A DNA stretch of 64,000 nt, taken from Olivibacter jilunii (GTDB lineage: Bacteria; Bacteroidota; Bacteroidia; Sphingobacteriales; Sphingobacteriaceae). The translations under genes were made by a program, and so were the position numbers. This document shows positions 3,184 to 57,563 of the stretch, one piece after another. The stretch is from positions 1 to 64,000 of the forward strand of contig NZ_LR027859.1 in NCBI RefSeq assembly GCF_900607235.1, written 5' to 3'. Within the stretch, counting starts at the first letter, position 1, and each line of letters begins with the position of its first letter. The notes under the pieces were generated by a model that saw only the letters and a program-made list of their open reading frames with translations, had not been told where the DNA came from and made no database searches.

Positions 3184-4167
3184 TTACCGGGCAATACCTG
3201 CCGCTCTTTCCTGCTTATTTTCCCTGGATACTTTATTCTGTTGTTCGGCTTTTATTCCCGGCTTTAAAAATTCTTCCCGTTTTTCAGGTTTACCATTTTC
3301 AAGGAAGAAATTGGCTTTACGAAACCTTACCGAGGCTTCTACATAAACATTAACCGTTTCTCCACTGGCTTTCTCCGCTTTTACAAGCTCCCTATTTCCG
3401 TTCATGATTCCTGTAAAAATCTTTTCCGCCCTTTCTGGATTTTCAAGATCTTTGATATTAAATGATTTGAGTGATTCTTTAAGATCAAAACCATAACTCG
3501 GATCGTGGAATATCCTTGTCGTCAGGTTATTGTACCTGTCACGGGGCTTGTCAGTATTCAGCATCACCCACGCTTTATAAACCATACCCTGTATATTCAA
3601 CAGATCATCCCGGTACACGGCACGTCCCTGCACCAGATTTCCTGCCTGTTCCTTATTGAATCCTTTTCCTTCTTCTACGTAAAATGTCTGTGGTATGGGA
3701 TTGGCATAATAGGCAGATTGGAAAGTTTTTGCTACAAAATTGACCTTTCCATTCTCCATGTTGGCAACCATACTTTTATGGGCAGGGTCTTTTCCGATAG
3801 CAAGTTCGGCGTTTCCTTCCTGCTTTTTGAACAGTTCAATAGCTTCATTAACGTTATCAAGCTTCTTGACTATGTTTTTGCCATCTTCGCCTTTGAGGAT
3901 AACCATATATTTCTGACCGATCTCCAGTGGGTCGACCTTATTGTGTACGGCGTCAAATTTGTTGAAATAATAGAAATCCGATTGGCTGGATTTTTTGTAA
4001 TGCAGCGTAAAATCAATCTGTCCTTTTGCCGTTGCAGGCATACTGTCATATGCTTTAAATTCGGGAACACCCAATTTGATATTTTCTTCAATCTGTGCAA
4101 TGGTTTTTGGGCTAAAACCAAGGTTTTTAGCTTCGTCGATTCTATCTTCTAAATTGTTCAGATTCAT
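3184..4167 (-). CDS. Hypothetical ICE protein, DUF3945/DUF4099-like
   Basis: 327 aa, soluble. The middle (NLVQGRAVYRDDLLNIQG and KAWVMLNTDKPRDRYNN) resembles the DUF3945-type repeats of Bacteroidetes mobile-element proteins, in which a short beta-rich unit with 'QGRAV' recurs. The C-terminus is Lys/Glu/Gln-rich and looks disordered. It stands right after traM, where TraN is expected in CTnDOT-like elements, but it has no signal peptide and does not resemble TraN/VirB9. Function is unknown; DUF3945 proteins are usually found near topoisomerase or transfer genes. Confidence 0.6.
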   Translation of the reverse strand: MNLNNLEDRIDEAKNLGFSPKTIAQIEENIKLGVPEFKAYDSMPATAKGQIDFTLHYKKSSQSDFYYFNKFDAVHNKVDPLEIGQKYMVILKGEDGKNIVKKLDNVNEAIELFKKQEGNAELAIGKDPAHKSMVANMENGKVNFVAKTFQSAYYANPIPQTFYVEEGKGFNKEQAGNLVQGRAVYRDDLLNIQGMVYKAWVMLNTDKPRDRYNNLTTRIFHDPSYGFDLKESLKSFNIKDLENPERAEKIFTGIMNGNRELVKAEKASGETVNVYVEASVRFRKANFFLENGKPEKREEFLKPGIKAEQQNKVSRENKQERAAGIAR

Positions 4168-4250
4168 AACATTTAATTTTTAATTTACGGATATTGTTAA
4201 ATATGAAATGGTTGTTTTCTTCTCCTTTTAGGAGGGCGGGCTCTTCCAAC

Positions 4251-5336
4251 CTATCTAGTGTTTTTTAAATCATTGTTCTTTAAGAGTACAGACTCCCCGG
4301 CTTTTACCTTAACCTTTATTTTGCGAACTTTTTTGCTGATTATGTTTTTAGCGGCCTCCATACCGGCACCCGCTACCTGCGTGGCAATGGAGCCATCTAG
4401 CCCGTACATACCAATTCCACGCACCAGATTGTCCGTCCCAAGATTTGCGGCTTCCGTGATGACCGCTTCGGGAGCGTAAAGACCCTCCATTCCATCGAGA
4501 CTATAAACGCTTAGGTTTACGGGGATAATCGATGTTCCCAAACGGATATTGCGGATATTTAGCATAATCCGTTGATTCGCTATCCGGCAGGTAGCGAACA
4601 GATAAAAGCCTTTGGGAATATGATGGCCCTTGATGACCATACTATCCTGCAACTGAAGCCTTACCGTAGCTCCCTGTACTACTTTTTGTTTATTGGTAAT
4701 GATCGCCGGTATTGCCCTGAAAAGGCTATCCTCGGCTGCAATCATCTCTTTTTCGCTTTGGAGCTTTTCTTTGACCCGGTCCGGGTGCTGAATATCCAGA
4801 ATCGTCTGGAGTAGTCCATTGAGCTGCTCCACCTCTCTATCATCAGAGCTGTCTGCATGCATGCTTTTCATCAAAGATTCCAGCCGATCTACTTCGCTGT
4901 TCATCTCTGATTTGGGTCTTGGTTCCACCATTGGATTTTCAGCTACAACCGCAAAAGGAAATTTTTTCTGTTTTTCTTGTGGCCTGCTGATTTCCTGCCG
5001 GATTGCTTTTAGCTTTTCATCAATTTCCTCGGCTTTTGGATTTTCCTCTGGCGAGAAACCCAGCCTGTTTATGACATTTTCAATACCCTCCTGCTTTTTT
5101 TCCTCATCCCTCGTCGCCTGCCGGTAAAAATCCATCTTATCACGGGGTTGATTTTTTTGCCTGAATGCAGCATTAGGTAATTCCGTATTGATGCCTTTTT
5201 TTTCGATTTGAGCATCGTCCTTTGTTCCCTTACCGCCCCCTAATGTATAAAATGCAAATACCAAAAAGGGCATTACGAGCAATGGCAAGAAAAGCCATAT
5301 TTTACGGGTGTCTCTCTTTTTTTCCTGTTCTATCAT
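4251..5336 (-). CDS. traM: Conjugative transposon protein TraM (VirB10-like role)
   Basis: About 361 aa. Starts MIEQEKKRDTRKIWLF; a single membrane segment follows (FLPLLVMPFLVFAFYTL), then a long charged, Pro/Glu-rich periplasmic linker and a C-terminal folded domain (QGATVRLQLQDSMVIKGHHI ... GMYGLDGSIATQVAG). This is the architecture of Bacteroidetes TraM, thought to bridge inner and outer membranes in the mating-pair apparatus. The open frame runs further upstream to 5447, but that part overlaps the small upstream gene and gives nonsense, so the ATG at 5336 is chosen. It is the last clear tra gene seen; traN does not follow. Confidence 0.9.
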   Translation of the reverse strand: MIEQEKKRDTRKIWLFLPLLVMPFLVFAFYTLGGGKGTKDDAQIEKKGINTELPNAAFRQKNQPRDKMDFYRQATRDEEKKQEGIENVINRLGFSPEENPKAEEIDEKLKAIRQEISRPQEKQKKFPFAVVAENPMVEPRPKSEMNSEVDRLESLMKSMHADSSDDREVEQLNGLLQTILDIQHPDRVKEKLQSEKEMIAAEDSLFRAIPAIITNKQKVVQGATVRLQLQDSMVIKGHHIPKGFYLFATCRIANQRIMLNIRNIRLGTSIIPVNLSVYSLDGMEGLYAPEAVITEAANLGTDNLVRGIGMYGLDGSIATQVAGAGMEAAKNIISKKVRKIKVKVKAGESVLLKNNDLKNTR

Positions 5337-5362
5337 GATATTGTTTTTTTTGATGATCAATT

Positions 5363-5590
5363 TCAATTCAGTGCCCGGACCAACAGGTAAATACAGTAAG
5401 CTCCAATAGAGAGAAAGCATAAGAGGAAAGCGGATAGCAAAACCCATCGGGGTAAGCCACTGGCCTTTTTATTCAAAAAGGAAGCAAACCGTTGTTGTCC
5501 CTTAACGATTTTCATCGCTATCCGGTAAGCCGTTTCATCCTGTTCATGTTGCTGCTGCTTCCTATCCTGTTGTTTCCTGTAGAGTTTCAT
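5363..5590 (-). CDS. Small single-membrane-segment protein in the traL position
   Basis: 75 aa with a charged Gln/Lys-rich N-terminus (KLYRKQQDRKQQQHEQ) and one C-terminal membrane helix (WVLLSAFLLCFLSIGAYCIYLL). The ATG at 5590 overlaps the traK stop as ATGA, which fixes the start and shows translational coupling. It stands between traK and traM, exactly where a small TraL protein is found in Bacteroidetes conjugative transposons. The sequence is too short and variable to prove homology to TraL; position is the main argument. Confidence 0.75.
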   Translation of the reverse strand: MKLYRKQQDRKQQQHEQDETAYRIAMKIVKGQQRFASFLNKKASGLPRWVLLSAFLLCFLSIGAYCIYLLVRALN

Positions 5591-6198
5591 GGCAACTGGT
5601 TTTCGTTTTTGAGGACTTCCCAATGCTCTATCAGAAAGCCATGTGGGTTATTATCGGTCTGTTGCTTTAAGTCGCGTACTTTCCCTTTGGTGACCAGTCT
5701 CTTCAATGCCGTGCTGGTTGAGCGGGTGAGCTTTTGGGTAGCATAACAGATAAATGTGTAGGGATATTGGTCTATATCAAGCACGGTGCTGTCCACCTCA
5801 ATTTCCTGTGAGATATTGGCCGAGATCAGGTTGTTGTAATAACCCGATTCCTTCAGGTTGTCATACTGCTTCTTGGCAGACTCGTCCGCGAGATAAAATG
5901 CCTTTGAAACACTGGTCTCTATGGCTTTATCGTCCGGAATGAGGTTAAAAAAGTAATAGTGGAACGTTTTGATATGATCCCGTAGCTCAACAGGCAGGTT
6001 ACCTTGCCTATGTGTTGCAAGGGCTTCCATCACCTTCCCGTTATATAGAATATAAATCCGTTGCTGAGCTGCTTCTACCATCTGATAGCTTTTGTAGGCA
6101 CAGAAACAGACTGTCAGAACATTGGCCAATATCAGGGCGATACTGAACCTTTTTATATGCCTGAAGGCCGTATCAATATTTCTGAACTGTGTAAACAT
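5587..6198 (-). CDS. traK: Conjugative transposon protein TraK (VirB8-like role)
   Basis: 203 aa. A short cytoplasmic N-terminus (MFTQFRNIDTAFRHIKRFS) is followed by one membrane helix (ALILANVLTVCFCAYKSYQ) and a periplasmic domain with YILYNGKVMEAL and FHYYFFNLIPDDKAIE, which are typical of Bacteroidetes TraK. The family has the size and topology of the VirB8 scaffold of type IV secretion systems. It ends in a 4-bp ATGA overlap with the small traL-position gene. Family call is secure; the VirB8 analogy is established for related elements by topology. Confidence 0.93.
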   Translation of the reverse strand: MFTQFRNIDTAFRHIKRFSIALILANVLTVCFCAYKSYQMVEAAQQRIYILYNGKVMEALATHRQGNLPVELRDHIKTFHYYFFNLIPDDKAIETSVSKAFYLADESAKKQYDNLKESGYYNNLISANISQEIEVDSTVLDIDQYPYTFICYATQKLTRSTSTALKRLVTKGKVRDLKQQTDNNPHGFLIEHWEVLKNENQLP

Positions 6199-6218
6199 AG
6201 GCTTGTCTTTAATTTGAA

Positions 6219-7430
6219 TTATTTACCGGAAAGCTTGTCATAGAGGTAGGCTCCTCCTTTTCCCATTGTACCTGATGCACCATATGAGCCCGAACCTTCC
6301 TGCTGCCCGGAATATTGTTTTCCGGCCTGTAAGATGTTGGAACCTCCCTGCATTACACCAGCAGCCCCACCTGTCGCCAAACCTCCCGCGGCCATGGCCG
6401 AAGTGGTTACGATACTGGTTACTTTCTGCAACATCGCATTGGCTCCTCCTGCCTGCACCACGTAGTTAGCTACATTGGGAACAGTGAAATACCCTACAAT
6501 TCCGATCAGCATAAATATCAGGTAAGCGGTATCATAGGTACTGAAAAAGGTGTCACCTGACTGGCCGATCTGTCCGATATCTATTTTGAGCATATTCTCC
6601 TGAATTTTGCCAAGTATACTTCCGAATATGTTACTGATGGGAAGCCATAAAAAGACGTTGATATACCGGGCAAGCCATTGGACAAGCGATTGCTGGAAAC
6701 CATCAAAGACCGCTATACCAAGCACAAAGGGCCCTAGTATGGAGAGCACGATCAAGAAAAATGTCCGGATCGTATTGATGCACAGAGAAGCAGCTGCGAA
6801 AACAACCTGCAAAACCTCACTCATCCATTGCTTTACCGAATTGCGGAAATTGTAAGATTGTTTCTCCATCCAGAACTGCATATCGTGGCCCAGTCCTTCC
6901 AAAAGTCCCTCGCCGGAGCCGTTCTCGTTTTCGGGATACTTGTATTTATACCATTCGGAACGATCGCCGTTACCGTCTTCTCCGACATAAATATTATACA
7001 GATCGGATTTTTTTACTGCCGCCTCTTTTTGTTTCAGGAGTGCTATTATTGCATCATTACTGTCTCTGACCATTGCCCCAGTGGCAAGCACAGTCGGTTG
7101 CAGTACACCGTTCATCAGATCGATAACCGCGGGAAAAAACATAATGGCAAGACCAAGACCGAATGGACGCAAAAGCGGATAAAAATCGATGGATTCAGCG
7201 GCCGCAATCTGGCGCCATACACGACTGGCGGTATACCAGAGGGCGCCAAAACCAGCTATGGCACGCGCAACGTCGATGAGTTTTCCGCTTAACGGCTGCA
7301 TGTCGTCCCGCACACTGTCCAGTACGGGCTGCATGCCGCCCAAGGTCTGGGCAATATCCGCGCGACTGGCAAGCGGGAAGACAAGTGCGACAACCGCCAA
7401 CAGGACGGCCGCAAGTTTAATTTTTTTCAT
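6219..7430 (-). CDS. traJ: Conjugative transposon protein TraJ (VirB6-like role)
   Basis: 403 aa polytopic inner-membrane protein. It has an N-terminal signal-like helix, then several long hydrophobic segments (roughly residues 50-75, 85-110, 215-260, 290-330) and a Gly/Ala/Ser-rich C-terminus (GQQEGSGSYGASGTMGKGG). Motifs such as WYTASRVWRQIAAAESIDFY and FFLIVLSILGPFVLGIAVF are those of Bacteroidetes TraJ. It is coupled to the upstream gene by a 4-bp ATGA overlap. The product would form part of the inner-membrane channel of the mating apparatus. Confidence 0.93.
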   Translation of the reverse strand: MKKIKLAAVLLAVVALVFPLASRADIAQTLGGMQPVLDSVRDDMQPLSGKLIDVARAIAGFGALWYTASRVWRQIAAAESIDFYPLLRPFGLGLAIMFFPAVIDLMNGVLQPTVLATGAMVRDSNDAIIALLKQKEAAVKKSDLYNIYVGEDGNGDRSEWYKYKYPENENGSGEGLLEGLGHDMQFWMEKQSYNFRNSVKQWMSEVLQVVFAAASLCINTIRTFFLIVLSILGPFVLGIAVFDGFQQSLVQWLARYINVFLWLPISNIFGSILGKIQENMLKIDIGQIGQSGDTFFSTYDTAYLIFMLIGIVGYFTVPNVANYVVQAGGANAMLQKVTSIVTTSAMAAGGLATGGAAGVMQGGSNILQAGKQYSGQQEGSGSYGASGTMGKGGAYLYDKLSGK

Positions 7431-8089
7431 GGGTTTTTACCGTTAAAAAATTGACTGATACCTTTGATATCATTTATTTCTCTTTTCCTCTGCGCCAGCA
7501 ATACATTACCTGATTCATTGAATTTCCGGAGGAAAAGTAACTTATCCTGTATGTCGTTGTAAATACGGTCGATCTGCGCTAGACGCTCTTCATCGCTCAT
7601 TCTCAATTGAGAGGAAGTGATCACCAGGAGAAGATCCTCCAGGTTGTCTTTGCTCTGGTTCAATAGCCTTCCGTACACATTAGCCATATATTCCAATTCT
7701 CCGGAGTTGAATATTGCCGAACTTCTGAAATGTGATAGTGCGGATCGATATTCCGAATTGATCCTACCTTGCAAGCTGATGATGTCGGCAATCCGTCCAT
7801 ATTTTTTCACTTCGGGACTGACCAGCATCAGGCCATCAAGAAAAACGGTATGCAGGGAAAAGTTGCCCTCTGCTATATTCCTGATCGTATTATAACCATT
7901 GCTGATTATATCATAACCCGTTTTCATATCCCTTAAAATGTTTTTGAACTGGCTCAACTTTTCTGCATTGAGGATCAATTGCTGTATTTCGGTAGACTGC
8001 CCAGATGACCGTAAGGGCAATGCCATTGTTAGGCAGTAAGCAGCTACCGCAAAGAGAAAATACCTGCCTTTTTCAATTAGCTGTTTCAT
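7427..8089 (-). CDS. TraI-position secreted protein, copy 3 (TerB-annotated family)
   Basis: 220 aa with a signal peptide (FLFAVAAYCLTMALPLRSSGQ). The mature part is all-helical: 'LNAEKLSQFKNILRDMKTGYDIISNGYNTI' style helices, then LLLVITSSQLRMSDEERLAQIDRIYND. Proteins of this kind between traG and traJ are often labelled TerB-like; nothing here indicates tellurite resistance. It is a divergent relative of the two upstream genes: all share a '[E/D]LLLVI/VxSxxxxMSDxxRL' block near the C-terminal third. It probably supplies a periplasmic or pilus-associated component, as VirB5-like proteins do. Overlaps its neighbours by 4 and 17 bp. Confidence 0.75.
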   Translation of the reverse strand: MKQLIEKGRYFLFAVAAYCLTMALPLRSSGQSTEIQQLILNAEKLSQFKNILRDMKTGYDIISNGYNTIRNIAEGNFSLHTVFLDGLMLVSPEVKKYGRIADIISLQGRINSEYRSALSHFRSSAIFNSGELEYMANVYGRLLNQSKDNLEDLLLVITSSQLRMSDEERLAQIDRIYNDIQDKLLFLRKFNESGNVLLAQRKREINDIKGISQFFNGKNP

Positions 8090-8759
8090 ACATATGGTGG
8101 ATTTGATTCACGGACTTTAATTCTGATCTTATCTGTTCTTTTAAAACATTTACTTGTCCCGCGAAATGTTGGGCAAATGAGAACTTGTCACGCATAGACG
8201 TAAACACCTTATCTAACCGCTGCAAGCGCTGAGCTTCTGTCATTTCGATTTTACCGGGAGCAATAATCAGGAACAGTTCCTCCATATCCCTGCTACAATC
8301 CTCCGACAGCTTAGCGTGAATCTTTTCGATATAGGCCTTATGTGAAACTGAAAGGTCTCCATTGTCCCTTTCGAGCATATTAAACAGTTTGCTGATGGTA
8401 AGCTGGAAAGCGATGATTTCAGCCACTTTTATATGGTTTCTGATGAAGGGGCTTACAGTTTTTAATGAGCTGATAAAGGCATTATGGAGACTGAACTCCC
8501 CACCAGTAAAACCCTTTACCGTTTGCAGTCCTGAACGCGCAATATTATAACCATCTCTTACATAGCCCGAATAAAGCTGCAAGGCTGCAATCTGTGTCAA
8601 CAGGTATTTTTTCTGCGTCTTTTTCTGTTTAAAAAACTCCGAGAATGTTTGGGCTTGGGCAATATTGTTCACAGAAGAAAGTGGCAATATTGCAATCCAG
8701 CACAATAATACGCTGAACAGCGCACTGTAAAATACCGATAGCTTATTCCTGTATCCCAT
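8073..8759 (-). CDS. TraI-position secreted protein, copy 2 (TerB-annotated family)
   Basis: 228 aa. An N-terminal hydrophobic segment (FYSALFSVLLCWIAILPLSS) acts as signal peptide; the mature protein is helical, with 'LLTQIAALQLYSGYVRDGYNIARSGL' early and MEELFLIIAPGKIEMTEAQRLQRL late. That late block lines up with the corresponding blocks of the genes on both sides. It is embedded in the operon with 17-bp overlaps at both ends. Likely a secreted component of the mating apparatus; the exact role is not known. Confidence 0.75.
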   Translation of the reverse strand: MGYRNKLSVFYSALFSVLLCWIAILPLSSVNNIAQAQTFSEFFKQKKTQKKYLLTQIAALQLYSGYVRDGYNIARSGLQTVKGFTGGEFSLHNAFISSLKTVSPFIRNHIKVAEIIAFQLTISKLFNMLERDNGDLSVSHKAYIEKIHAKLSEDCSRDMEELFLIIAPGKIEMTEAQRLQRLDKVFTSMRDKFSFAQHFAGQVNVLKEQIRSELKSVNQIHHMYETAN

Positions 8760-9480
8760 AAATCTCTTTTAAGGTGACCACTTCATCCAATGAGGTTGCC
8801 CGCTGGATGCTCAGTTTAATGTTTTCGTGATTGAATTTTTTCAGGTCGGTAAGGTTCCGATCGATTTTATCGGCTGCACCGGCAATGATTTCCAGTCTGG
8901 CGGCATCCGACATCTGTGTTTTAAAGCTGTTCACCACTAATAAAAGCTCATCCGCATTTTTGACGCTTGCATCCAGTATCCCTGAATAAACTTTCTCCAT
9001 AACGGAAATCTCTTCGGGCGAGAAATGTTTATCACGTTTAAAGAGATTCCATGCCCACTTATATTCATTGACCAGTTCAACCTGTTTTGCCGTGAGTTCT
9101 TTCAGGCGTTTGTAATAGGTAACAGCTGATTTGATTTCCCAAAGTTCCTGATAGTATTTACGGTAGAGTTCTTTCTGTTTTTCCGTCCAATCGGCAATTT
9201 CGGTGAGTTTCAGCTTGGAAAGCTGATTTTCCAATACTTTCTGGGCATTCTGTAGCCATATCGCTTCGTTCTGCAAGCGTTGTATCTTTAGATCTACCGC
9301 TTTGATGACCCTTTTTACGCCCGTGCGGATCACTTCCGCTAGGGCAATCTGTGCGCTGGCCCCTTTCGGTACACCTACAAACAACGTGGCGGCGCTAAGG
9401 GGAAGCATAATCATATACTTCTTCATAATCTTCCTGATTTTGTGCGTCAAATTTTTTATAGTTTTCATTAGCTTATTCAT
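8743..9480 (-). CDS. traI: Conjugal transfer protein TraI (VirB5-like position)
   Basis: 245 aa, signal peptide around residues 18-43 (MKKYMIMLPLSAATLF ... GASAQ), then a long helical mature region (LKIQRLQNEAIWLQNAQKVL, YYKRLKELTAKQVELVNEYK) ending in a NADELLLVVNSFKTQMSDAARL block. The ATG overlaps the traG stop as TAATG, which supports the start at 9480 even though a second Met lies 4 codons in. Size, signal peptide and place downstream of traG match Bacteroidetes TraI. It begins a run of three related secreted proteins. Confidence 0.85.
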   Translation of the reverse strand: MNKLMKTIKNLTHKIRKIMKKYMIMLPLSAATLFVGVPKGASAQIALAEVIRTGVKRVIKAVDLKIQRLQNEAIWLQNAQKVLENQLSKLKLTEIADWTEKQKELYRKYYQELWEIKSAVTYYKRLKELTAKQVELVNEYKWAWNLFKRDKHFSPEEISVMEKVYSGILDASVKNADELLLVVNSFKTQMSDAARLEIIAGAADKIDRNLTDLKKFNHENIKLSIQRATSLDEVVTLKEIYGIQE

Positions 9481-11933
9481 TATTGACCGAGTGTTTCTTT
9501 GACAAGCATCTCAATACCTTTCTGCATACTACCATATCGCAGGGCGTATTCCTGTACCTTTACCTTTTCACTGGCCTCCGTGGTATAGGTCCAATACTCT
9601 TTGGGTGATACTTCGGTACGGTAGACCTTGCTGTGTCCACCAAGGCTGATAAACACCTCCTTGTACGAGTGGTCGGGATCGTTAGCTTTGTTCATGGATA
9701 GCACCAGTGCTTTCTCCTTATCCGTAAGCCCCAGCAGTTCCTGTACCTGCTCAAACTTGTTGGCATATTTGGACTGATCGAGCAATATCTTCGTGTCAGA
9801 ATTATTAATGATGGCATTTTTTACGATGGGCGAACTGATAATGTCCTCGATTTCCTGCGTCACTACGATAGGTTCACCAAAGAACTTGCGCATGGTTTTC
9901 CATAGGTAGCGCACATGTTCGGCCATACTATCTTTTGCAATTGCCTTCCATGCTTCTTCCAGCAGCACAACTTTCCTGATCTGCGGTATTTTCCGCATCT
10001 TTGATATAATCATTTCCATTATGACAAGGGTAATCACAGGAAAAAGCACGGGGTGGTCTTTCACTGCATCCAGTTCCATCACAATGAACCGTTGATGAAG
10101 TAAGTCCAGATTTTCATTGGCGTTCAACAGGTAATCAAACTCCCCACCCTTGTAGTAAGGATTGAGTACATAAAGAAAACTCCCCAGGTCAAAATCTTTT
10201 TCCTTTACCTGCGCTTCTTTAAGTACCGGCGAATATTCGGATAAGAGAAATTCGTAAAAGCTGTTGAATGAAGGAAAGATGTCGGGATTTTCGTCTAAGT
10301 AAGCGTAGTAAAAGGTTAGGGCATTGGATATCGCAACATACTCGGACCTTTTGTAAGGTTCGCTATCCTTTTTCCATAAGGATAACAGCAAGGTCTTAAT
10401 GCTTTCTTTTTTTTCGGTGTCGAGCGAGCTACCTTCAGGCAGATAGAAAGGATTGAAACGTATGGGGTCATCATCCGAATAAGTAAAATAGTAACCGCCT
10501 ACCAGATCGCACAATCCCTTATAGCTGTGGCCAATATCCACAATAATGATATGTGCACCCTGCTCATGGTAGCTCCGCATGAAATGGTTGGTCAGAAAAC
10601 TTTTTCCCGAACCCGAAGGACCCAATATAAATTTTGCCCGATTGGTGATCCATCCCTGTTTCCAGGGCTCGTCCGAAATATCCACATGCACGGGTCGACC
10701 ACTTATCCGGTCTCCAAGACGGATACCGAACGGACTGATGCTATCTTTATAGTTGGTTTCCAGATTGAAGAAACATGCAGCCTGCTCGGCAAAGCTGTCA
10801 AAAGTATCATTGATGGGAAAATCGGCCCCTGCTCCGGGCATTCCGGCGTACCATATCTGGGCCATGCCGTCTGTCTCCTGTTTGGCCGTGCAGTCCATTT
10901 GAGCAAGTGCCGAACTGACCTGATTTCTAAGTTCTGCATCTTCCGGTTTATCCGACCATACCAGCACGTTGAAATGCGCTTTAATAGGCAGCCGCTGCTC
11001 ACCGATGGCCTCGTTCAGAAAGCCGTTGACTGCCTCCATTGCCAGGGCGTTTTCCCTGCTGTACATCGAAAGAGATTGTAGCCGGAGCTTTTTAGATTCC
11101 AGCGCCTTGATCGTTTTTTGCGGATCTTCGATCAGTATATATTGGTTGTAAATATGATTACAATTTAAGAGCTGCCCTAATGGACTTGCAAAACCAATAC
11201 TGAACTTGGTCCGATCTGTACTGTATTTTTCATAGTTGATCCTGCTTCCGCACAGGGCAGGAAGGTTCTCGGTATCAGCAAGTGTATACAGCTGACAGTA
11301 CCGGTCACCTATTTTCAAACCATTTTGCAGATTAATGTCACGTACTATCGACTGCTCGTTTTCTGTTAACAGAAAACAGTAACGTTCCATAATCCCTGCC
11401 TTTACCGACGTTCCCGCTAACTCATCATTTCTCAATCGCCTCGGCCTAATAAATCCGCTATCTGTTAATATCCGTTCGAATTGCCCCGCGCTGTCCAGAA
11501 AATGTTGGAAAAGGTTTTCGTCCACGGTTTGCGCCGGAACAATCGTCCTCCGTAAAAGATTGTTATAAGCGGATGTGGCAGGCTTGCGCCCATTTGGCTT
11601 TTTGGTCAGGAAAAGATAGCAGGAATGAGCCAGATAAGGTCGTTCATTAAAAAACTTTTCACTGCTACGGGCAAGGAAACCATCCTTTCCTTCGTAGTCT
11701 GCTTTATAGCTCGCCTGTGTGTGCCAATCCTGTTTATGTAGGACGGTATGGTTTTGCAGTACCTTGATTGCCTTGACAAAGGTGCTGTGATAAGCCGTAT
11801 AATCCCGTTCCGATAAAGTGAAAATCTCGGGCAGGGTCAGTTCATAGGCTACCGTAATATCTCCCTGTCTGCTGAGTATACAGTCGTGCTCCACTTTGTA
11901 AATAGGAAATATGTTTGTTGCTTCGGCTATCAT
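9480..11933 (-). CDS. traG: Conjugation ATPase TraG (VirB4 family)
   Basis: 817 aa cytoplasmic or membrane-associated ATPase that powers assembly of the mating apparatus and substrate transport. Walker A is GPSGSGKS at residues 438-445; the Walker B-type segment is RKVVLLEEAW near residue 660, followed by WKTMRKFFGEPIVVTQEIED. The N-terminal third is the VirB4-type domain (FPIYKVEHDCILSRQGDITV). Length fits the family's usual 800-850 aa. ATG at 11933, 9 bp after traF. The assignment is very secure. Confidence 0.97.
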   Translation of the reverse strand: MIAEATNIFPIYKVEHDCILSRQGDITVAYELTLPEIFTLSERDYTAYHSTFVKAIKVLQNHTVLHKQDWHTQASYKADYEGKDGFLARSSEKFFNERPYLAHSCYLFLTKKPNGRKPATSAYNNLLRRTIVPAQTVDENLFQHFLDSAGQFERILTDSGFIRPRRLRNDELAGTSVKAGIMERYCFLLTENEQSIVRDINLQNGLKIGDRYCQLYTLADTENLPALCGSRINYEKYSTDRTKFSIGFASPLGQLLNCNHIYNQYILIEDPQKTIKALESKKLRLQSLSMYSRENALAMEAVNGFLNEAIGEQRLPIKAHFNVLVWSDKPEDAELRNQVSSALAQMDCTAKQETDGMAQIWYAGMPGAGADFPINDTFDSFAEQAACFFNLETNYKDSISPFGIRLGDRISGRPVHVDISDEPWKQGWITNRAKFILGPSGSGKSFLTNHFMRSYHEQGAHIIIVDIGHSYKGLCDLVGGYYFTYSDDDPIRFNPFYLPEGSSLDTEKKESIKTLLLSLWKKDSEPYKRSEYVAISNALTFYYAYLDENPDIFPSFNSFYEFLLSEYSPVLKEAQVKEKDFDLGSFLYVLNPYYKGGEFDYLLNANENLDLLHQRFIVMELDAVKDHPVLFPVITLVIMEMIISKMRKIPQIRKVVLLEEAWKAIAKDSMAEHVRYLWKTMRKFFGEPIVVTQEIEDIISSPIVKNAIINNSDTKILLDQSKYANKFEQVQELLGLTDKEKALVLSMNKANDPDHSYKEVFISLGGHSKVYRTEVSPKEYWTYTTEASEKVKVQEYALRYGSMQKGIEMLVKETLGQ

Positions 11934-13326: not shown

Positions 13327-14190
13327 TTAAAATCGTCTATTTTGGATGTCCGGGCGATATGCATCTTCATCATCCAGCTTTTGGATTATAGCTTTACCCA
13401 TTTCGTCAATATATTTGGTACGACTGAGCCTTTTGCGCTGCTTGATTTCGGCAAATCTTCTGTAAGGGCGTCCGATTTTTACATTGAAGAGAATTTCCAG
13501 CTTACGGACAATTTCACCTATTCCCGCGTGACCCTTGTTGATCTGTCCGGTACAGTACCATCCGTAGGCAGTTTCCAGCAAATTAATGCTTTCTCCGGTC
13601 CAAACCATGTCGTTCCCCGCTTCGATGTCGGTAACATTGTCCTTTCCATCTATCAGCTTCCGTAGATAGGTGGTCATACGCTCATTGGAAAGAATCTTAC
13701 CGATGAGATAATCTGCCGGGGTGGAGAAACGTTCGTCGTAGTCAATCCGTACCGGACAGAGCCATGACGGTGGTTCTGTAGACGAACGCATAAACAGAAG
13801 GCGGTCGAGGTGGTCAGCTCCGGAACGATGATAGCTGTGAAGTTCACGGTTGTCGCGATAGAATTTCTCGATCCCTTTGAGGAGATAACGGTAATATTTC
13901 TTAAGTTGATCGGCCGTGCCTTCCGGTTTCGTCAATTCAATCCGTTGTCTGGCAGAATAATAAAGTACCTGACTTATAAACGTAGGCTTTTTAGTCTTAA
14001 AAAAAGCTATTTCTTCCTGTTCACTGCTAAAGGTATAGTTTACAGTCCTGTTTTTAAGTTCAACGAGATAAGAACGCGCAGTCAGCAATTTTTTGGCAAT
14101 TTCCAGCTTATCTGTTATTTCTTCCTGTTCGATCATTGCCAGCTCATCTGAAAGTTGCCGGTAAAGATTATTGGCGATTTCGAGTATCAT
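13327..14190 (-). CDS. rteC: RteC-type ICE regulatory protein
   Basis: 287 aa, soluble and helical. The C-terminal half (LLETAYGWYCTGQINKGHAG, then IVRKLEILFNVKIGRPYRRF and EIKQRKRLSRTKYID) is the RteC domain. In CTnDOT, RteC is needed for excision and is itself controlled by the RteA/RteB two-component system. The ATG at 14190 is preferred over a TTG two codons upstream. Here the nearby two-component system is of LytS/LytTR type, so that system may control this gene; that link is inference. Confidence 0.88.
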   Translation of the reverse strand: MILEIANNLYRQLSDELAMIEQEEITDKLEIAKKLLTARSYLVELKNRTVNYTFSSEQEEIAFFKTKKPTFISQVLYYSARQRIELTKPEGTADQLKKYYRYLLKGIEKFYRDNRELHSYHRSGADHLDRLLFMRSSTEPPSWLCPVRIDYDERFSTPADYLIGKILSNERMTTYLRKLIDGKDNVTDIEAGNDMVWTGESINLLETAYGWYCTGQINKGHAGIGEIVRKLEILFNVKIGRPYRRFAEIKQRKRLSRTKYIDEMGKAIIQKLDDEDAYRPDIQNRRF

Positions 14191-14346
14191 AAGCAAAAAT
14201 TTTGGTGCGCTACAAATACTCAGGTTTTACGGATGGAAATAAAGTGGTGAAGGTGGTGTCGGAACAGCTACATGTGTAATATCAGAGCTTATTTACGGCC
14301 TATTAAAGGTATTAGGTGGTGAAAAAATGAGAAAAAATGTGCAATA

Positions 14347-14934: not shown

Positions 14935-16140
14935 TCAGGGATACTTGGAATTTATGTAATTCAACATTGAGGTTAACATCTGTTTTACTTTATTGATCAC
15001 CTGTTGAGAGGGAATGGTATCCTTACTCAGTAAACTATGCAGCGCCAGGTGTTCTCTGTTGGGTGTTCCGATAAAGTCTGCTATAAAAGCAAATAACATT
15101 TTCTTGGTATCCACCACAAGTATTTTCATTTCCAACAGCACGCGGAAAAAGAAAAGTAGCTGCCGTTCGGTAAGGGAAACCTGAAAATGGTAGCGGCCCG
15201 TTGCCGGATCAATTGCACCCACCGGAAATTTTGACCATAAGCTTCGACGCTTGCGGAGCTCTTTACGCTTACGTTTACTGTATGTTAAAAGTTGCTGCCT
15301 TATGGACGGCATCTGGTTATCGGCGGCCTGTTTTTTTACTTCAGGGATCAGCGCCAACTGGTTTCTGTAAATTAGCCATTGTTCTTCTTTTTTATATTCA
15401 TCGTCCAGATTTTCCACAGCCTTTGCCATTTTTTCTTTGATAAGATGACAGAAGGGGCCATAATTGAAATTCAGGGTTATCAGCTGTTCGATCAGCTCCC
15501 GTTCGTAGCGATCCGAATATTTCAGGTAAGACAGACGTGAAGGCAATTCAGCTACAAGCCTGATGGCATAATGCCAATGATGCCATTTAAAATAACTCAT
15601 CATGCTTTTATCAGAAAACCCGGAAAAGTAGTTTTGTAGGGAGACGATCAGCTGTCGATCCACGCGATTTTTATATAGCTCTCCCAATAATGTGCGTACA
15701 TTCCTCAAAAAGGTTGTTGACCTGAAATAGGGTATAAAAGGGGGCAGTGGTCTGTCTTCGTGAAAACAATCGGGATAGTGCTGAAATAAGCCTTCCAGAA
15801 ACCGGATTCCCTGGTTCAGTGCATAGTAATAGACCGCAGCCCGGTAGTTATTCCCGTAAGCTATCTTTATTCTTCTTTCCTTTTCCTGTTCAAGTTTCCT
15901 CCACCACTCCTGCATTACATCGGTTATATTGAGTTGGTATTTTCCTATTAATGTATACCTGCTGAACGGCTCATGGAGGACTGTAGCCGAGATATTTGTT
16001 TCCAGACTTAAAAAATATTGTTTTATGACCCGTTTATAAGACGTGAAGCTCTCTTTATAATACGTTTCTGATATCAATACCTCATTAATGAGTTCATGAA
16101 GGTCATCGGCGCGCACAATTCGGTTCGATCTGGCATACAT
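14935..16140 (-). CDS. Hypothetical 401-aa protein, distal gene of the LytTR operon
   Basis: Soluble, basic and helical (FLSLETNISATVLHEPFSRY, ... YRAAVYYYALNQGIRFLEGL). The C-terminus (LTERQLLFFFRVLLEMKIL ... LLSKDTIPSQQVINKVKQML) has a layout like the C-terminal part of RteC and of other Bacteroidetes mobile-element regulators, but the similarity is weak and read by eye. It starts 13 bp after the LytTR gene, so it is part of that operon and may be its output or effector. I do not recognise a named family. Confidence 0.6.
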   Translation of the reverse strand: MYARSNRIVRADDLHELINEVLISETYYKESFTSYKRVIKQYFLSLETNISATVLHEPFSRYTLIGKYQLNITDVMQEWWRKLEQEKERRIKIAYGNNYRAAVYYYALNQGIRFLEGLFQHYPDCFHEDRPLPPFIPYFRSTTFLRNVRTLLGELYKNRVDRQLIVSLQNYFSGFSDKSMMSYFKWHHWHYAIRLVAELPSRLSYLKYSDRYERELIEQLITLNFNYGPFCHLIKEKMAKAVENLDDEYKKEEQWLIYRNQLALIPEVKKQAADNQMPSIRQQLLTYSKRKRKELRKRRSLWSKFPVGAIDPATGRYHFQVSLTERQLLFFFRVLLEMKILVVDTKKMLFAFIADFIGTPNREHLALHSLLSKDTIPSQQVINKVKQMLTSMLNYINSKYP

Positions 16141-16153
16141 CTCATGTTGGTGA

Positions 16154-16861
16154 TTAGTGTTGATACAACGTCTTTAGAACATAGTCCTTATATGTTTTTC
16201 CGATGATCAGCCCTGTTTTATTTTTCAGTATAACCATACCTTCATCGATCAGGTCAATCATCTTTATAGATATGATATAAGATCGGTGGATTCGTATAAA
16301 ACCGTCAGTCAGACGCAGTTCGGATTCAACATCGTCCATCCGCATGGAAGTCAATACAAATTCATCATGTTTGTGGAATATTACATCGTTTCCCCTTGCT
16401 TCTACATAAATGATATCATTGAAATCTATCTTCTTTAATTTTCCTTTATGTTCGATCTGTACAAAGATGTAATCGTTTTTTACTGTGGGTAATTCCAATG
16501 TTCTGTGCAGTATCCTTTCCTTCAGCTTTTCCACTGCTTTTGCAAATCGATCGAATTGAACAGGCTTTAACAGATAATCCACTGCATCGAGCTCGATACT
16601 TTCGATTGCAAATTCTGTATAAGCAGTACAGACCACCACTTTAACCGAAGGGTCAAGCTCGCGCATCACTTCGGTACCCGTCATTTCATCCATTTCCATG
16701 TCAAGAAAAACTGCATGAACATTTAGTTTCGGGATCATTTTTAAACCTTCGAGTGGCCTTGTGGCGGTTCCTATCAAATGGACGTTCGGTACCTGCTCCA
16801 GATAACGGGAAATCTGTTCCAGTGCGGCAGGTTCATCATCAATTGCGAAACAGTTTATCAT
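16154..16861 (-). CDS. LytTR-family response regulator
   Basis: 235 aa. Residues 1-118 are a receiver domain: acidic pair IDDEPAA, phosphoacceptor Asp in VFLDMEMDEMTG (about residue 54), T/S and K in VVCTAYTEFA and DYLLKPV. Residues about 135-233 are a LytTR DNA-binding domain (YIFVQIEHKGKLKKIDFNDI, YVEARGNDVIFH, FIRIHRSYIISI). It overlaps the kinase stop by one base (TAATG), so the two are translated together. LytTR regulators bind pairs of short direct repeats about 21 bp apart; such a pair is seen at 19537-19565. Confidence 0.95.
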   Translation of the reverse strand: MINCFAIDDEPAALEQISRYLEQVPNVHLIGTATRPLEGLKMIPKLNVHAVFLDMEMDEMTGTEVMRELDPSVKVVVCTAYTEFAIESIELDAVDYLLKPVQFDRFAKAVEKLKERILHRTLELPTVKNDYIFVQIEHKGKLKKIDFNDIIYVEARGNDVIFHKHDEFVLTSMRMDDVESELRLTDGFIRIHRSYIISIKMIDLIDEGMVILKNKTGLIIGKTYKDYVLKTLYQH

Positions 16862-42369: not shown

Positions 42370-42397
42370 TTCATTTAAGATTTAAATCTTAAATGAA
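42370..42397. promoter_or_regulatory. 28-bp perfect palindrome, operator candidate
   Basis: Each 14-base half reads TTCATTTAAGATTT, followed by its exact reverse complement. The sequence has the A/T-rich ATTTAAG core seen in ArsR/SmtB-type operators. It ends 12 bp before the ATG of the Cys-rich gene, so a bound protein would block transcription or initiation. No ArsR-type gene is in the window. Confidence 0.8.
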
Positions 42398-53724: not shown

Positions 53725-55737
53725 TTATAAAGACAGGGAAGTCTGTTCAGGAGGCGTTGGAATATTTTTTGGAAGGGTATCATTTTCTTTGGGAAGTGAT
53801 CCGGTCATCTTTGCCAACTCTTTTGTTATCAACTGCTGTATATCATCTTTTATACTGAGATAGGTTTCCTGTATATCTGCTGCTGTTACCTTTTCAACAA
53901 GTGGTATATCTCTATAGGAAGCTTCTTCTGCCTTTATAACTTCATGGTCATTCTGTATTTCTGCATGAAAAATTTTCTGTGGTATCTTACAGTCCGGGTT
54001 GTCGGCAACAACGCCAACAAACACGCCTGATGAAAGTGTTGCTATCTTGCTTGCCGGAATGGCGGCATCCAACTGCGTAGATTTTGAGATGGATGTGTCA
54101 CTGCTGTTTATGCTCAGACTCTGTCGATCCTGAACAATTTTGCCAAACGTCTCCGATAACTTTTTTGCAGTATCGCCGGTCACCTGTCCGCTGATAATAT
54201 TCCCGACAATTCCGGTTATTACATCTGCTTGGTCGGCCCCGTAATCTTTTTTTAGCTGGCTGAAATCCTGAACGGCTAATACCGTGGCCACTTTGTTGCT
54301 CCTTGCTGTGGCAATAAGGCTATCAATATTGTTAAAGTAGATCGTTGGAAACTCATCAAAAATAAGGCTGCTTTTAAGTTGGCCTTTCCTGTTGACCAGT
54401 TTTATCATTCTTGAAATGAAGAGGGAAAGTATAGGGCCGAACACCTGTAGTTTCTGCGGGTTGTTACCAACGCATACGATTTTTGGAGCTTTTGGGTTAT
54501 TAACATCCAAGGTAAAATCATTGCCGCTCAGAACATAATATAACTGGGGCGAGGATAATCTGGCCAATCCGATTTTTGCGCTGGCGATCTGCCCCTCCAG
54601 CTGCTCTTTTGCGTTATTCTGAAAAGCAGATATAAATGGGTTGATCAGTACCTTGATCTGCTCCTCCTGTTGTAATACGGCAAAAAGCGGATCGTAATCC
54701 ACCTGCATTAGCTCTATAACATGCGGCAAGGTACAATATCTCCCATTTTCATACTTCCGAAGAAACCAGATAATGGCTGTTAGGAAGTTTATGGGACTCT
54801 CTACAAAGAAGTCACCTTCCTTTTTTATCCAGTCGCGGTTAAGGCCAAGCATAATGGTACGGCTTGCCTCCGTAGCATCGGTAATATCGTCCATACTTTC
54901 GGGATCCAAGGGATTGCACCGGTGATATATTTTCTCGAAATCAATCACCCAGAAAGTTGGCTTCACGGCATAATTCTTCCGATATCTCAATAATGCATTA
55001 TAGGTAATCCTGGACAGATCATCGAATTTAAAATCATATAAGAAGACGGAGAACCCCTTTTTTATATGCTGATCAATGATATGGCGGATGACAAAATAAC
55101 TTTTCCCTGCACCGGGGGTTCCCGCTACCAATAGTCCTCTGAAAAGATTGATAAAGTTTATCCAACCGTTCCTTATCTTCCCCTTAAGCTGATATTTTGT
55201 CTGAAGGTTAACGGAAAATTCGTTTTCCAATAGCCGTTCTTCCTGTGGAAAGGTTTCATTCTCTGTATTGAAGATATCATGGCTAAGCTTTTCTTTTAAT
55301 AGCCTTGAGAGGTATACGCCTCCCGTTAGGATCAGGAGGTAACCTATTGATGTCATCAGCATATAGAGTGCTGCAATGACCGCTATTCGTGTAGGGAGAT
55401 AAAAACAAAGTATACTTATGAAGTAAAGTAACAGTCCGGTAATAATATAGCAAACGATCACCCTTACCTTCATCTTTTCATCCTTTTTGCCCTTTGCTCC
55501 CAACAGGGATATCGACAGCAAACCCAGTGCAGCAAGTTTGGGCAAGAAGATGTGGGAATAAAGGCCCGTCTTTGCAATAACACTTATGATTCGATTGGTA
55601 ATTTCTGCTGTCCAGCCCCATTGTTCAAAAACTTTATAACAGCATAGGTAAAAATGGATAGCCAATATGAATATGCTGATCAGTCTGGAAAAGTCTATAA
55701 TTTTCCTTAAGCCCTGTATATCTTCTCCTGTGTTCAT
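53725..55737 (-). CDS. mobC: MobC type IV coupling protein (VirD4 family)
   Basis: 670 aa. N-terminal membrane helices (residues 15-150), then an ATPase domain with Walker A in LLVAGTPGAGKSYFVIRHII (about 205-215) and Walker B in SSLIFDEFPTIYFNNID, plus TVLAVQDFSQLKKDYG. In Bacteroidetes ICEs this coupling protein is called MobC; it brings the relaxase-DNA complex to the mating channel. Its start overlaps the mobB stop by 4 bp. Confidence 0.93.
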   Translation of the reverse strand: MNTGEDIQGLRKIIDFSRLISIFILAIHFYLCCYKVFEQWGWTAEITNRIISVIAKTGLYSHIFLPKLAALGLLSISLLGAKGKKDEKMKVRVIVCYIITGLLLYFISILCFYLPTRIAVIAALYMLMTSIGYLLILTGGVYLSRLLKEKLSHDIFNTENETFPQEERLLENEFSVNLQTKYQLKGKIRNGWINFINLFRGLLVAGTPGAGKSYFVIRHIIDQHIKKGFSVFLYDFKFDDLSRITYNALLRYRKNYAVKPTFWVIDFEKIYHRCNPLDPESMDDITDATEASRTIMLGLNRDWIKKEGDFFVESPINFLTAIIWFLRKYENGRYCTLPHVIELMQVDYDPLFAVLQQEEQIKVLINPFISAFQNNAKEQLEGQIASAKIGLARLSSPQLYYVLSGNDFTLDVNNPKAPKIVCVGNNPQKLQVFGPILSLFISRMIKLVNRKGQLKSSLIFDEFPTIYFNNIDSLIATARSNKVATVLAVQDFSQLKKDYGADQADVITGIVGNIISGQVTGDTAKKLSETFGKIVQDRQSLSINSSDTSISKSTQLDAAIPASKIATLSSGVFVGVVADNPDCKIPQKIFHAEIQNDHEVIKAEEASYRDIPLVEKVTAADIQETYLSIKDDIQQLITKELAKMTGSLPKENDTLPKNIPTPPEQTSLSL

Positions 55738-57020
55738 GGTTGTTTTCGCTTTATCTGTCTTTTTTTCTTTTTGGAAGTAATAGAAGGTGCATATCCGGTA
55801 TACTCGGGATTCAGAAGGTCTTTCAGTATTTTATCGGTTGTAGTGGAGACAGTCAGATTGGAAAAGTTGGTTTTTCCGGCATGTTGAAGGTGCTTTTCTT
55901 CACTGTGGGGTTTTAGGTAACTGTTTATTCTTTTTGGCTTCGCCAGATAGGTCTTGACCTTATCGTTTTCGGCAAGTTTTTCCTTCAGGGCTTTTGCACT
56001 GTAAGCTTTCCCAAGACTGCTGCCATTAAAAACGGTTTTACACCGGTGATCAATAAACGTGGTGCCGTATATAAATCCTTCTTCGTTCTGGCGGAAAAAA
56101 AGCGCTATCTCACTTTTCTGTAATTCGGTATTCAAGGTCTGTTTGGTGATGCCTTCATACCTGTTAAGCACCTGGTCGATCCGCTCTTTTAGATCATCGC
56201 GATACGGCTTCCTTTTCTCGACATTCTGTTCAAACTTTCTTTCCAACCGTTTAAGGATAGGTTTACTATAAAAGCTGCTTGCTTTGATCGGAACTCCAAC
56301 CTTATTGCCCTGTCTGTCCAGCACTGAATAAAGAAGACCTTTTTTTCTGAACATTTCGCTTTCCTCACTCCCCCTGTCTGCCACGACATTGAACTGTTTG
56401 AGCACTGCATTAAATTCTGCAAGTGACGTGAACTTATAGCTATTCATCACCGTCGTAACCACACTGCCGATTGCCCTTTTGGTAGGCAAATGACCATATT
56501 GTATTCTCTCAGGATCAATTGCCTTTATAGCTGGCTCTGGATGATATGTTTTGCTCTCCGCTTTTATCAGGCCAAATTCTTTCTCTATGAATTTTCTTGC
56601 CTGTTCCGATTTTATCCTTCCTATGTTATGTAGGTTGATAGAGTTGCCATCCTTTTTTATATTTACCGTTGCGATGTGGAAATGCTGATGGGAAACATCG
56701 TGATGCCGATATACCAGAAAAGGTTGGTCACCAAACCCGATACCTTCCATATAGGCTGCTGCGATCTGTTGCATTTCAGCGTCGACCAATTTTTCACTTG
56801 AATGGAAGTTAAGTGAAATATGAAGTGCATTCGTTTTTACGCTTGGTTTGAGATTGGTTAGATGTTCAAATCGCGTAAGTTTATGAGCGAAATTCAACTT
56901 TTTGATGTCATCTGCAAACCCACTGGCCATAATCAGCGTGGCAGAACCTTCCGCAACCTTCTGCTCGTTATAATGCAATATGCCCCGAATACTTTTACCT
57001 ATCATGATCTTTGCAACCAT
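55734..57020 (-). CDS. mobB: MobB relaxase (MOBP-like)
   Basis: 428 aa. N-terminal domain starts MVAKIMIGKSIRGILHYNEQ; the metal-binding histidine cluster is VYRHHDVSHQHFHIATVNIK (HxxxxHxH). The C-terminal half is charged and linker-like, ending KKKKRQIKRKQP. Bacteroidetes MobB cuts one strand at oriT and stays attached to it. It overlaps mobA by 19 bp and mobC by 4 bp. Confidence 0.93.
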   Translation of the reverse strand: MVAKIMIGKSIRGILHYNEQKVAEGSATLIMASGFADDIKKLNFAHKLTRFEHLTNLKPSVKTNALHISLNFHSSEKLVDAEMQQIAAAYMEGIGFGDQPFLVYRHHDVSHQHFHIATVNIKKDGNSINLHNIGRIKSEQARKFIEKEFGLIKAESKTYHPEPAIKAIDPERIQYGHLPTKRAIGSVVTTVMNSYKFTSLAEFNAVLKQFNVVADRGSEESEMFRKKGLLYSVLDRQGNKVGVPIKASSFYSKPILKRLERKFEQNVEKRKPYRDDLKERIDQVLNRYEGITKQTLNTELQKSEIALFFRQNEEGFIYGTTFIDHRCKTVFNGSSLGKAYSAKALKEKLAENDKVKTYLAKPKRINSYLKPHSEEKHLQHAGKTNFSNLTVSTTTDKILKDLLNPEYTGYAPSITSKKKKRQIKRKQP

Positions 57021-57412
57021 TTTTCAGCAAGTTTTGAAACGATATCCAATAGCCGTTCTATTTTTGGTTCCATCTGTTTATAGGTACTGGCTGTTTTAAG
57101 GGCAAAAAAAGCCCGTTCAGCCTCACTCTGACTGGTGTGAAAACGATGCGTCTGCTGATTGATATTGACACCTATTGCTTTGATCTCTTTTCTTATCAAT
57201 GCAAGCTCTTCCATAGGACCATTCATAGAAACATCCCTATGCAGGTAAGTTATCCGTTGTTTTAAGAGCGTCTTTCTGACCACTTCTCCAATGCTCCTGC
57301 AATTACTTTCTTTCCGGATTTTTTCGAGCTTATTAAACTCATTTAAAGTGACTCTAATAACAATCGGATTAGTAAGTACCTGTTCTTGATTTTTGATTTC
57401 TTTCCTTGGCAT
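57002..57412 (-). CDS. mobA: MobA mobilisation accessory protein
   Basis: 136 aa with a ribbon-helix-helix-like start (VIRVTLNEFNKLEKIRKESN, SIGEVVRKTLLKQRITYLHR) and a helical C-terminal part (IRKEIKAIGVNINQQTHRFH). Proteins of this type bind oriT and help the relaxase. It is the first gene of the mob operon and starts directly next to the structured DNA at 57430-57563. Confidence 0.88.
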   Translation of the reverse strand: MPRKEIKNQEQVLTNPIVIRVTLNEFNKLEKIRKESNCRSIGEVVRKTLLKQRITYLHRDVSMNGPMEELALIRKEIKAIGVNINQQTHRFHTSQSEAERAFFALKTASTYKQMEPKIERLLDIVSKLAEKWLQRS

Positions 57413-57429
57413 AAATCACACCTTTTAGA

Positions 57430-57563
57430 AAGTTCAGACTTTACGAGTTCCGAGTAAAGTCTCCGGCCTCAAGGACGGCAAAGATATTTTCGTATACGAA
57501 AATACATCTTTGCTGCCCACCCGCGTGGGCCATAACTCACCTGCTGGAATGTAGTCTGAACTT
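57430..57563. other. oriT candidate with nested inverted repeats
   Basis: Outer 11-bp perfect repeats AAGTTCAGACT (57430-57440) and AGTCTGAACTT (57553-57563) enclose three hairpins: AGACTTTAC/GTAAAGTCT (57436-57462); a 20-bp perfect palindrome at 57485-57504 extended by GCAAAGA/TCTTTGC (57478-57513); and GCCCAC/GTGGGC (57515-57530). It lies immediately upstream of mobA, where oriT is found in related elements. The exact nick position cannot be read. Confidence 0.7.

Follow-up and report, generated by a model that had tools for sequence, protein, structure and literature searches.

A three-hairpin repeat block upstream of mobA as the probable transfer origin of a Bacteroidota ICE, with copies on recombinase-bearing islands that may be mobilised in trans

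The DNA analysed here (the window) is a stretch of 64,000 nucleotides from Olivibacter jilunii, and the question that it raises is what a block of inverted repeats packed into positions 57430-57563, just ahead of a set of mobilisation genes, does for the element that carries it. An earlier note on this DNA had proposed an origin of transfer (oriT) next to mobA. Because of its position, its mob neighbours, its phylum-wide conservation beside a relaxase family and the existence of stand-alone copies where no mob genes were detected, all of which support that proposal, we consider the block to be the oriT of a mobABC-carrying ICE with a probability of around 90%.

The block immediately precedes the mobA-mobB-mobC operon that a Bacteroidota ICE carries here, the position of the cis site in mobABC ICEs of the CTn341/CTnDOT kind. 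The three genes are read from the minus strand. The product of mobC (53725-55737) is a VirD4-like coupling protein of 670 amino acids that scored 1127.7 bits with NF041326, above its cut-off of 900, and that of mobB (55734-57020) is a MOBP-type relaxase of 428 amino acids with a PF03432 domain (E 2.7e-25), an N-terminal tyrosine and the HxDxxHxHxH motif. Its residues Y17, H106, D108, H111, H113 and H115 were invariant in 25 sequences, and we take them to be the catalytic tyrosine and the HxDxxHxHxH motif of MOBP relaxases. When the full-length MobB was compared with Bacteroid_MobB (NF041325, E 5.6e-90), it reached 302.3 bits against a cut-off of 400, in such a way that it can be described as a relative of this model and not as a member by its cut-off. 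MobA (57002-57412, 136 amino acids, a putative relaxosome accessory protein) was a weak match to MobC_2 (PF19514), with 26.8 bits, just below the curated cut-off of 27.5, and it scored 26.7 bits with Bacteroid_MobA (NF041324) against a curated cut-off of 150; it appears MobA-like by position, not a member of the NF041324 model, and these scores below the cut-offs count against the oriT reading. At the other end of the window, TraM, TraK, TraJ and TraG of the Bac_Flav conjugative-transposon type (4251-11933, minus strand) matched TIGR03779, TIGR03781, TIGR03782 and TIGR03783, all above cut-off. A copper P-type ATPase was found among the other genes of the window. The nearest named relative was Olivibacter sp. 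XZL3 (92%), and the window's own genome has three further mobABC-type loci with oriT-like sites (G000:C9:58939-59106, L002 and L060; C6:11370-12410, L106; C2:618090-619130, L111), one of them 88-91% identical to the block.

The four perfect inverted repeats that had been described were all present. The outer one, of 11 bp, pairs 57430-57440 with 57553-57563. The second, of 9 bp, pairs 57436-57444 with 57454-57462 and forms hairpin C (57436-57462), whose loop reads TC-G-GAA-C-TC in the mob sense. The third is the 20-bp palindrome B, TATTTTCGTATACGAAAATA, at 57485-57504, and it has the extended arms attributed to it, which are imperfect (57473-57490 and 57501-57518). The fourth, GCCCAC-CCGC-GTGGGC, forms hairpin A with arms at 57515-57520 and 57525-57530, two bases 3' of the nick proposed below on the plus strand. 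Between B and A lies the putative nick arm ATCTTTGC (57506-57513, plus strand), and on the other side of B a facing arm GCAAAGAT (57478-57485, plus strand) extends the palindrome. The block had been thought to touch the start of MobA, but its edge at 57430 is separated by 17 nt from the minus-strand ATG at 57412. Perfect palindromes of at least 20 bp are rare at the composition of the window, as judged from 20 first-order random sequences, of which 18 had none and two had one; the window has three. The other two are at 42374-42393, the core of a longer palindrome between listed ORFs, and at 11358-11377, inside traG. As DNA, the block folds much better than its dinucleotide shuffles, with z values of -6.9 for the plus strand and -6.3 for the minus strand.

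The outer repeat had been taken to enclose the others in one large fold. It exists and is perfect in the window, but it does not hold as the fold that organises the block: each of the four nearest relatives shows one or two changes on one side only, with no compensatory change in any of them, which rules it out in this role, and in more distant relatives the repeat is lost. As it is perfect only here and is not maintained, the single nested structure is probably an accident of the window copy.

The remaining parts are widely conserved. A relaxase search of 200 genomes gave matches in 57, and about 1 kb upstream of the relaxase match was inspected in the loci of the best 60 matches, from which the window was excluded. 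A GCAAGAT-like nick arm and hairpin C were found at the same place in 59 of the 61 loci made up by the window and these relatives; the two failures were a locus with the site farther upstream (L077) and one with a truncated site (L109). In the mob sense, the conserved unit runs from hairpin A through a GCAA(A)GAT arm and palindrome B to hairpin C, and an ATCTT(T)GC arm that faces the first one usually stands between B and C. The second set, of named genomes, overlaps with the first in some genomes and was chosen by the relaxase protein alone, with an alignment of relaxases as query; a single relaxase gave no match. Three of its 80 loci were left out for want of sufficient upstream DNA. In 68 of the remaining 77 loci an automated search detected arm, B and C in the 1 kb that precedes the relaxase, against 1 of 77 on the reverse strand, supporting that the signature is shared along the relaxase family. 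Most of the nine misses were, on inspection, variants of the same layout that the search pattern excludes, and one locus (L272) had no such site in the upstream stretch inspected. The automated search likewise missed four Bacteroides/Parabacteroides mobABC loci, where the layout is visible only by eye. The site of a Spirosoma plasmid was found automatically, and a plasmid collection searched with the block DNA gave only a 25-base match that looks like chance. Many mob-bearing loci carry two hairpins C. At one locus (L134, G034:C11), hairpin C and a GCAAGATGT arm are also found ahead of a mobilisation gene pair of another kind, which includes a distant relaxase-like protein.

Palindrome B keeps its position and symmetry among the relatives while its sequence changes, as in TTTTCGTATACGAAAA, TTTTTGTCCACAAAAA and CGTTTGTATTACAAACG, and its loop varies in length. 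Most of them have hairpin A at the same place, with different arm sequences and with 0-2 nt between its 3' arm and the GCAAG arm. In some relatives hairpin A is weak or absent, or the facing arm is degenerate, and this counts against the oriT reading, as do the truncated site of L109 and the stretch without a site in L272.

Hairpin C has a near-invariant loop, TC-[S-GAA-S]-TC, and stems that covary. Loci were selected for its alignment by the loop only, which left 53 of the 61 in a gap-free alignment of 25 columns, the other eight having a variant loop or none. Pairing was observed in 80.2% of the cells compared with 49.3% in shuffles, and the covariation score was 0.733 compared with 0.229, a value reached by none of 500 shuffles, the best slid register scoring 0.319. 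The pair that closes the GAA triloop was C-G in 28 and G-C in 22 of the 50 distinct sequences and was never unpaired, a pairing that the selection of loci did not require. A covariance model of this hairpin (R1) had exactly four matches at E<=0.007 in the window's genome, all beside MobB-family relaxases. Further R1 matches there, at E values of 0.28-0.9, had neither a nick arm nor a palindrome alongside and were discarded as probable chance.

A block with these properties just upstream of mobA could also be an RNA leader that controls the expression of mobABC, be it an attenuator, a riboregulator or a site for MobA in the mRNA. The transcript folds well (z -5.3 against dinucleotide shuffles), and 2-56 nt lie between the end of hairpin C and the start codon, a range that also means that its distance to the gene varies. 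A function as RNA predicts more G-U pairs than A-C mismatches in the stems when the mob-sense strand is read. We counted single internal mismatches flanked by Watson-Crick pairs, and found 10 G.T, 10 A.C and 26 others in hairpin C, 1, 4 and 4, respectively, in hairpin A, and 2, 1 and 4 in palindrome B, in such a way that the three together show 13 G.T against 15 A.C. By the same rule, 23 distinct tRNAs of the relatives gave 9 G.T and no A.C. Moreover, hairpin C is kept in nine loci with no detected mobA, an Rfam search gave no match near the block, a scan showed no terminator-like site in the region, and promoter-like sites there were no more than in shuffles. We rejected the RNA leader on the G-U statistics and the orphan copies, and consider it improbable. 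Stems that covary without an excess of G-U, in a hairpin that persists in copies without detected mobA, argue for the hairpins acting as DNA structure, even if transcription may run through the block. Calculated with DNA energies, hairpin C is slightly more stable on the transferred strand in 40 of the 50 sequences (mean -3.2 compared with -2.8 kcal/mol), a weak hint towards that strand.

Even less likely, the repeats could be double-stranded operators for a repressor of mobABC instead of a transfer origin. Operators typically show dyad symmetry ahead of their operon, and MobA could regulate its own operon through these sites; against this, the arm sequences drift among relatives with their self-complementarity kept, the conserved part of hairpin C is its loop, and copies exist without the operon. 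That the true oriT is elsewhere in the ICE and the block an unrelated folding, an idea left some room by a nick placed here by inference, has a negligible probability when the layout is conserved beside the relaxase in 68 of 77 loci against 1 in the control, and when the only significant matches of the hairpin C model are the four mob loci of the genome.

Having in mind that the block is most probably an oriT, its likeness to known systems points to how it might work. The arm on the side of hairpin A was present, with a permissive arm pattern, in all 59 loci anchored on hairpin C, and the facing arm in 44 of the 59. On the plus strand of the window the complement of the nick arm reads ACATCTTTGC, and in most relatives ACATCTTGC; the core of MOBP nick sites is YATCCTG^Y. 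From this conservation and this likeness we infer a MOBP-type oriT nicked on the plus strand at about 57512/57513. The facing arm, read on the opposite strand, gives ATCTTTGC as well, which counts against this placement. In the mechanism that we propose, MobA and MobB would bind the region of the arm and palindrome B, and supercoiling together with this binding would extrude the hairpins, so that the ATCTT(T)G^C arm between B and A would be exposed as single strand. The tyrosine of MobB would then cut the plus strand near 57512/57513 and stay on the 5' end, with palindrome B 5' of the nick and hairpin A directly 3' of it. The strand would leave rightwards, from 58 kb onward, so that mobABC would enter last, and recognition of the regenerated site would close the circle. 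Hairpin C, located 5' of B on the transferred strand, could serve the relaxosome as a landmark in the DNA, or act as single strand in recapture or priming, and would be in either case a DNA element rather than a leader of the mobA mRNA.

Among known systems, the best reading is that the site belongs, as a new member, to the CTn341/CTnDOT mobABC kind. Peed et al., in 2010, are said to have located the CTn341 oriT just upstream of mobA. CTn341 and CTnDOT share gene order and families (NF041325, NF041326) with the mobABC of the window, and, according to passages of PMC5729914, CTn341 has an oriT with an inverted repeat and a nick site. The annotated Bacteroides/Parabacteroides mobABC loci have, judged by eye, the same layout of hairpin A, arm, B and C, with MobB proteins about 31-35% identical to that of the window; palindrome B is short, perfect and without a loop in the window, whereas the Bacteroides type is long and looped. 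A MOBP relaxase with the HxDxxHxHxH motif, as in MobB, is also present in RP4 and R64, whose oriTs have an inverted repeat 5' of an ATCCTG^Y-like site. The window site differs from them in an additional hairpin directly 3' of the proposed nick and in hairpin C with its near-invariant loop, and we know of no loop-conserved hairpin like C in RP4 or R64. No description of the three-hairpin layout was found in the literature passages searched, to which the primary CTn341 and CTnDOT papers do not belong, and absence from print is not claimed.

Copies of the site without mobilisation genes were sought with a pattern of nick arm and C loop in the 200 relative genomes, and 37 places were found in 30 of them, compared with 3 for a reversed control pattern. 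A MobB-type relaxase follows at 22 of these places and relaxase remnants are present at three; one place is degenerate and about 8 kb from a relaxase remnant, one is at a contig edge, and one lacks B and is probably due to chance. At the other nine (L153-L157 and L224-L227), no match to MobA, MobB or MobC was seen in the surrounding 14-19 kb, where the Pfam scan covered part of the ORFs, so that some of the nine may have a relaxase of another family. All nine keep B and C, and the oriT copies occur single or in tandem. L155, L156, L157 and L224 have a tandem of two units of arm and palindrome B, spaced 67-68 bp, followed by one or two hairpins C. L227 (G054) has two oriT-like copies, at 9303 and 10267 (about 1 kb apart), next to a set of Druantia-like genes, and its hairpin C is degenerate.

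Recombinases are present near seven of the nine orphans (L154, L153 by its DNA identity to L154, L155, L156, L157, L224 and L226), and anti-phage defence genes near eight, a count that is not put forward as an enrichment over the oriTs that have mob genes. These are a HamB-like helicase (L153), a type I methylase/specificity protein (L154), DRT UG39 and a CBASS cyclase with a TIR-STING effector (L155), GajA and AbiEii (L156), bSEFIR and PDC-S73 (L224), a dCTP deaminase (L225), HamA and HamB (L226), and DruE, DruK and DruM (L227); in L157 none was seen among the fewer proteins scanned. The types of cargo over the orphans are CBASS TIR-STING with DRT, Gabija, Hachiman, Druantia, dCTP deaminase, type I restriction-like and SEFIR. 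The best delimited orphan is L155 (G044), an element of about 11 kb flanked by a 27-bp direct repeat (3246-3272 and 14171-14197), which contains a tandem oriT and a tyrosine integrase that, being in two reading frames, is perhaps broken; a Pfam scan of all ten ORFs of at least 110 amino acids in this element gave no relaxase match. In L225 (G109, 3599-10110), the two copies of a 47-bp direct repeat flank 6.5 kb that contain the oriT, the dCTP deaminase-like gene and PLD and DUF4238 proteins, and no integrase was recognised in this element. An empty-site comparison of the G038 and G087 elements showed repeated att-like segments and no clean empty site. Repeated att-like segments were also seen in L323 (G207, at 6908-7081, 15302-15443 and 16354-16501), upstream of a START_2 gene, a region that is likely a hot spot for serine-integrase elements.

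A MobB-type relaxase is encoded elsewhere in the genome for four of the nine orphans (G038, G054, G080 and G109). In G080 the orphan copy has almost the same palindrome and spacing as the copy of the resident ICE, as expected if one serves the other; the genomes of the other five have no such relaxase, and a helper would therefore have to come in. To judge from their gene content, the orphan loci look like relaxase-less satellites that would use the MobABC of ICEs in trans. Islands with an integrase and an ICE-like oriT and no relaxase are a known class in passages of PMC5704250 and PMC11389934, as the MGIs of SXT-family ICEs and as iOriT; the orphans share this composition with them, and differ in phylum and in oriT family. 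According to passages of PMC5704250, every Bacteroidetes IME known by 2017 had a relaxase of its own, and nothing on iOriT in Bacteroidota was found in the literature searched. With somewhat better than even confidence, we propose that the three-hairpin oriT is a phylum-wide signal adopted by recombinase-bearing islands with defence cargo and without detected MobABC, presumably mobilised in trans by MobABC ICEs like that of the window, and that hairpin C is a single-stranded DNA element whose invariant loop is read by a protein.

A compact signature of this sort would make transfer origins, and elements mobilised in trans, findable by sequence alone for a widespread type of ICE in Bacteroidota, a phylum with few mapped oriTs. 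The conserved loop of hairpin C, for which no role was found described in the literature passages, offers a specific question that can be tested. If the orphan copies work, they would account for the spread of some defence islands among Bacteroidota and would point to their helpers.
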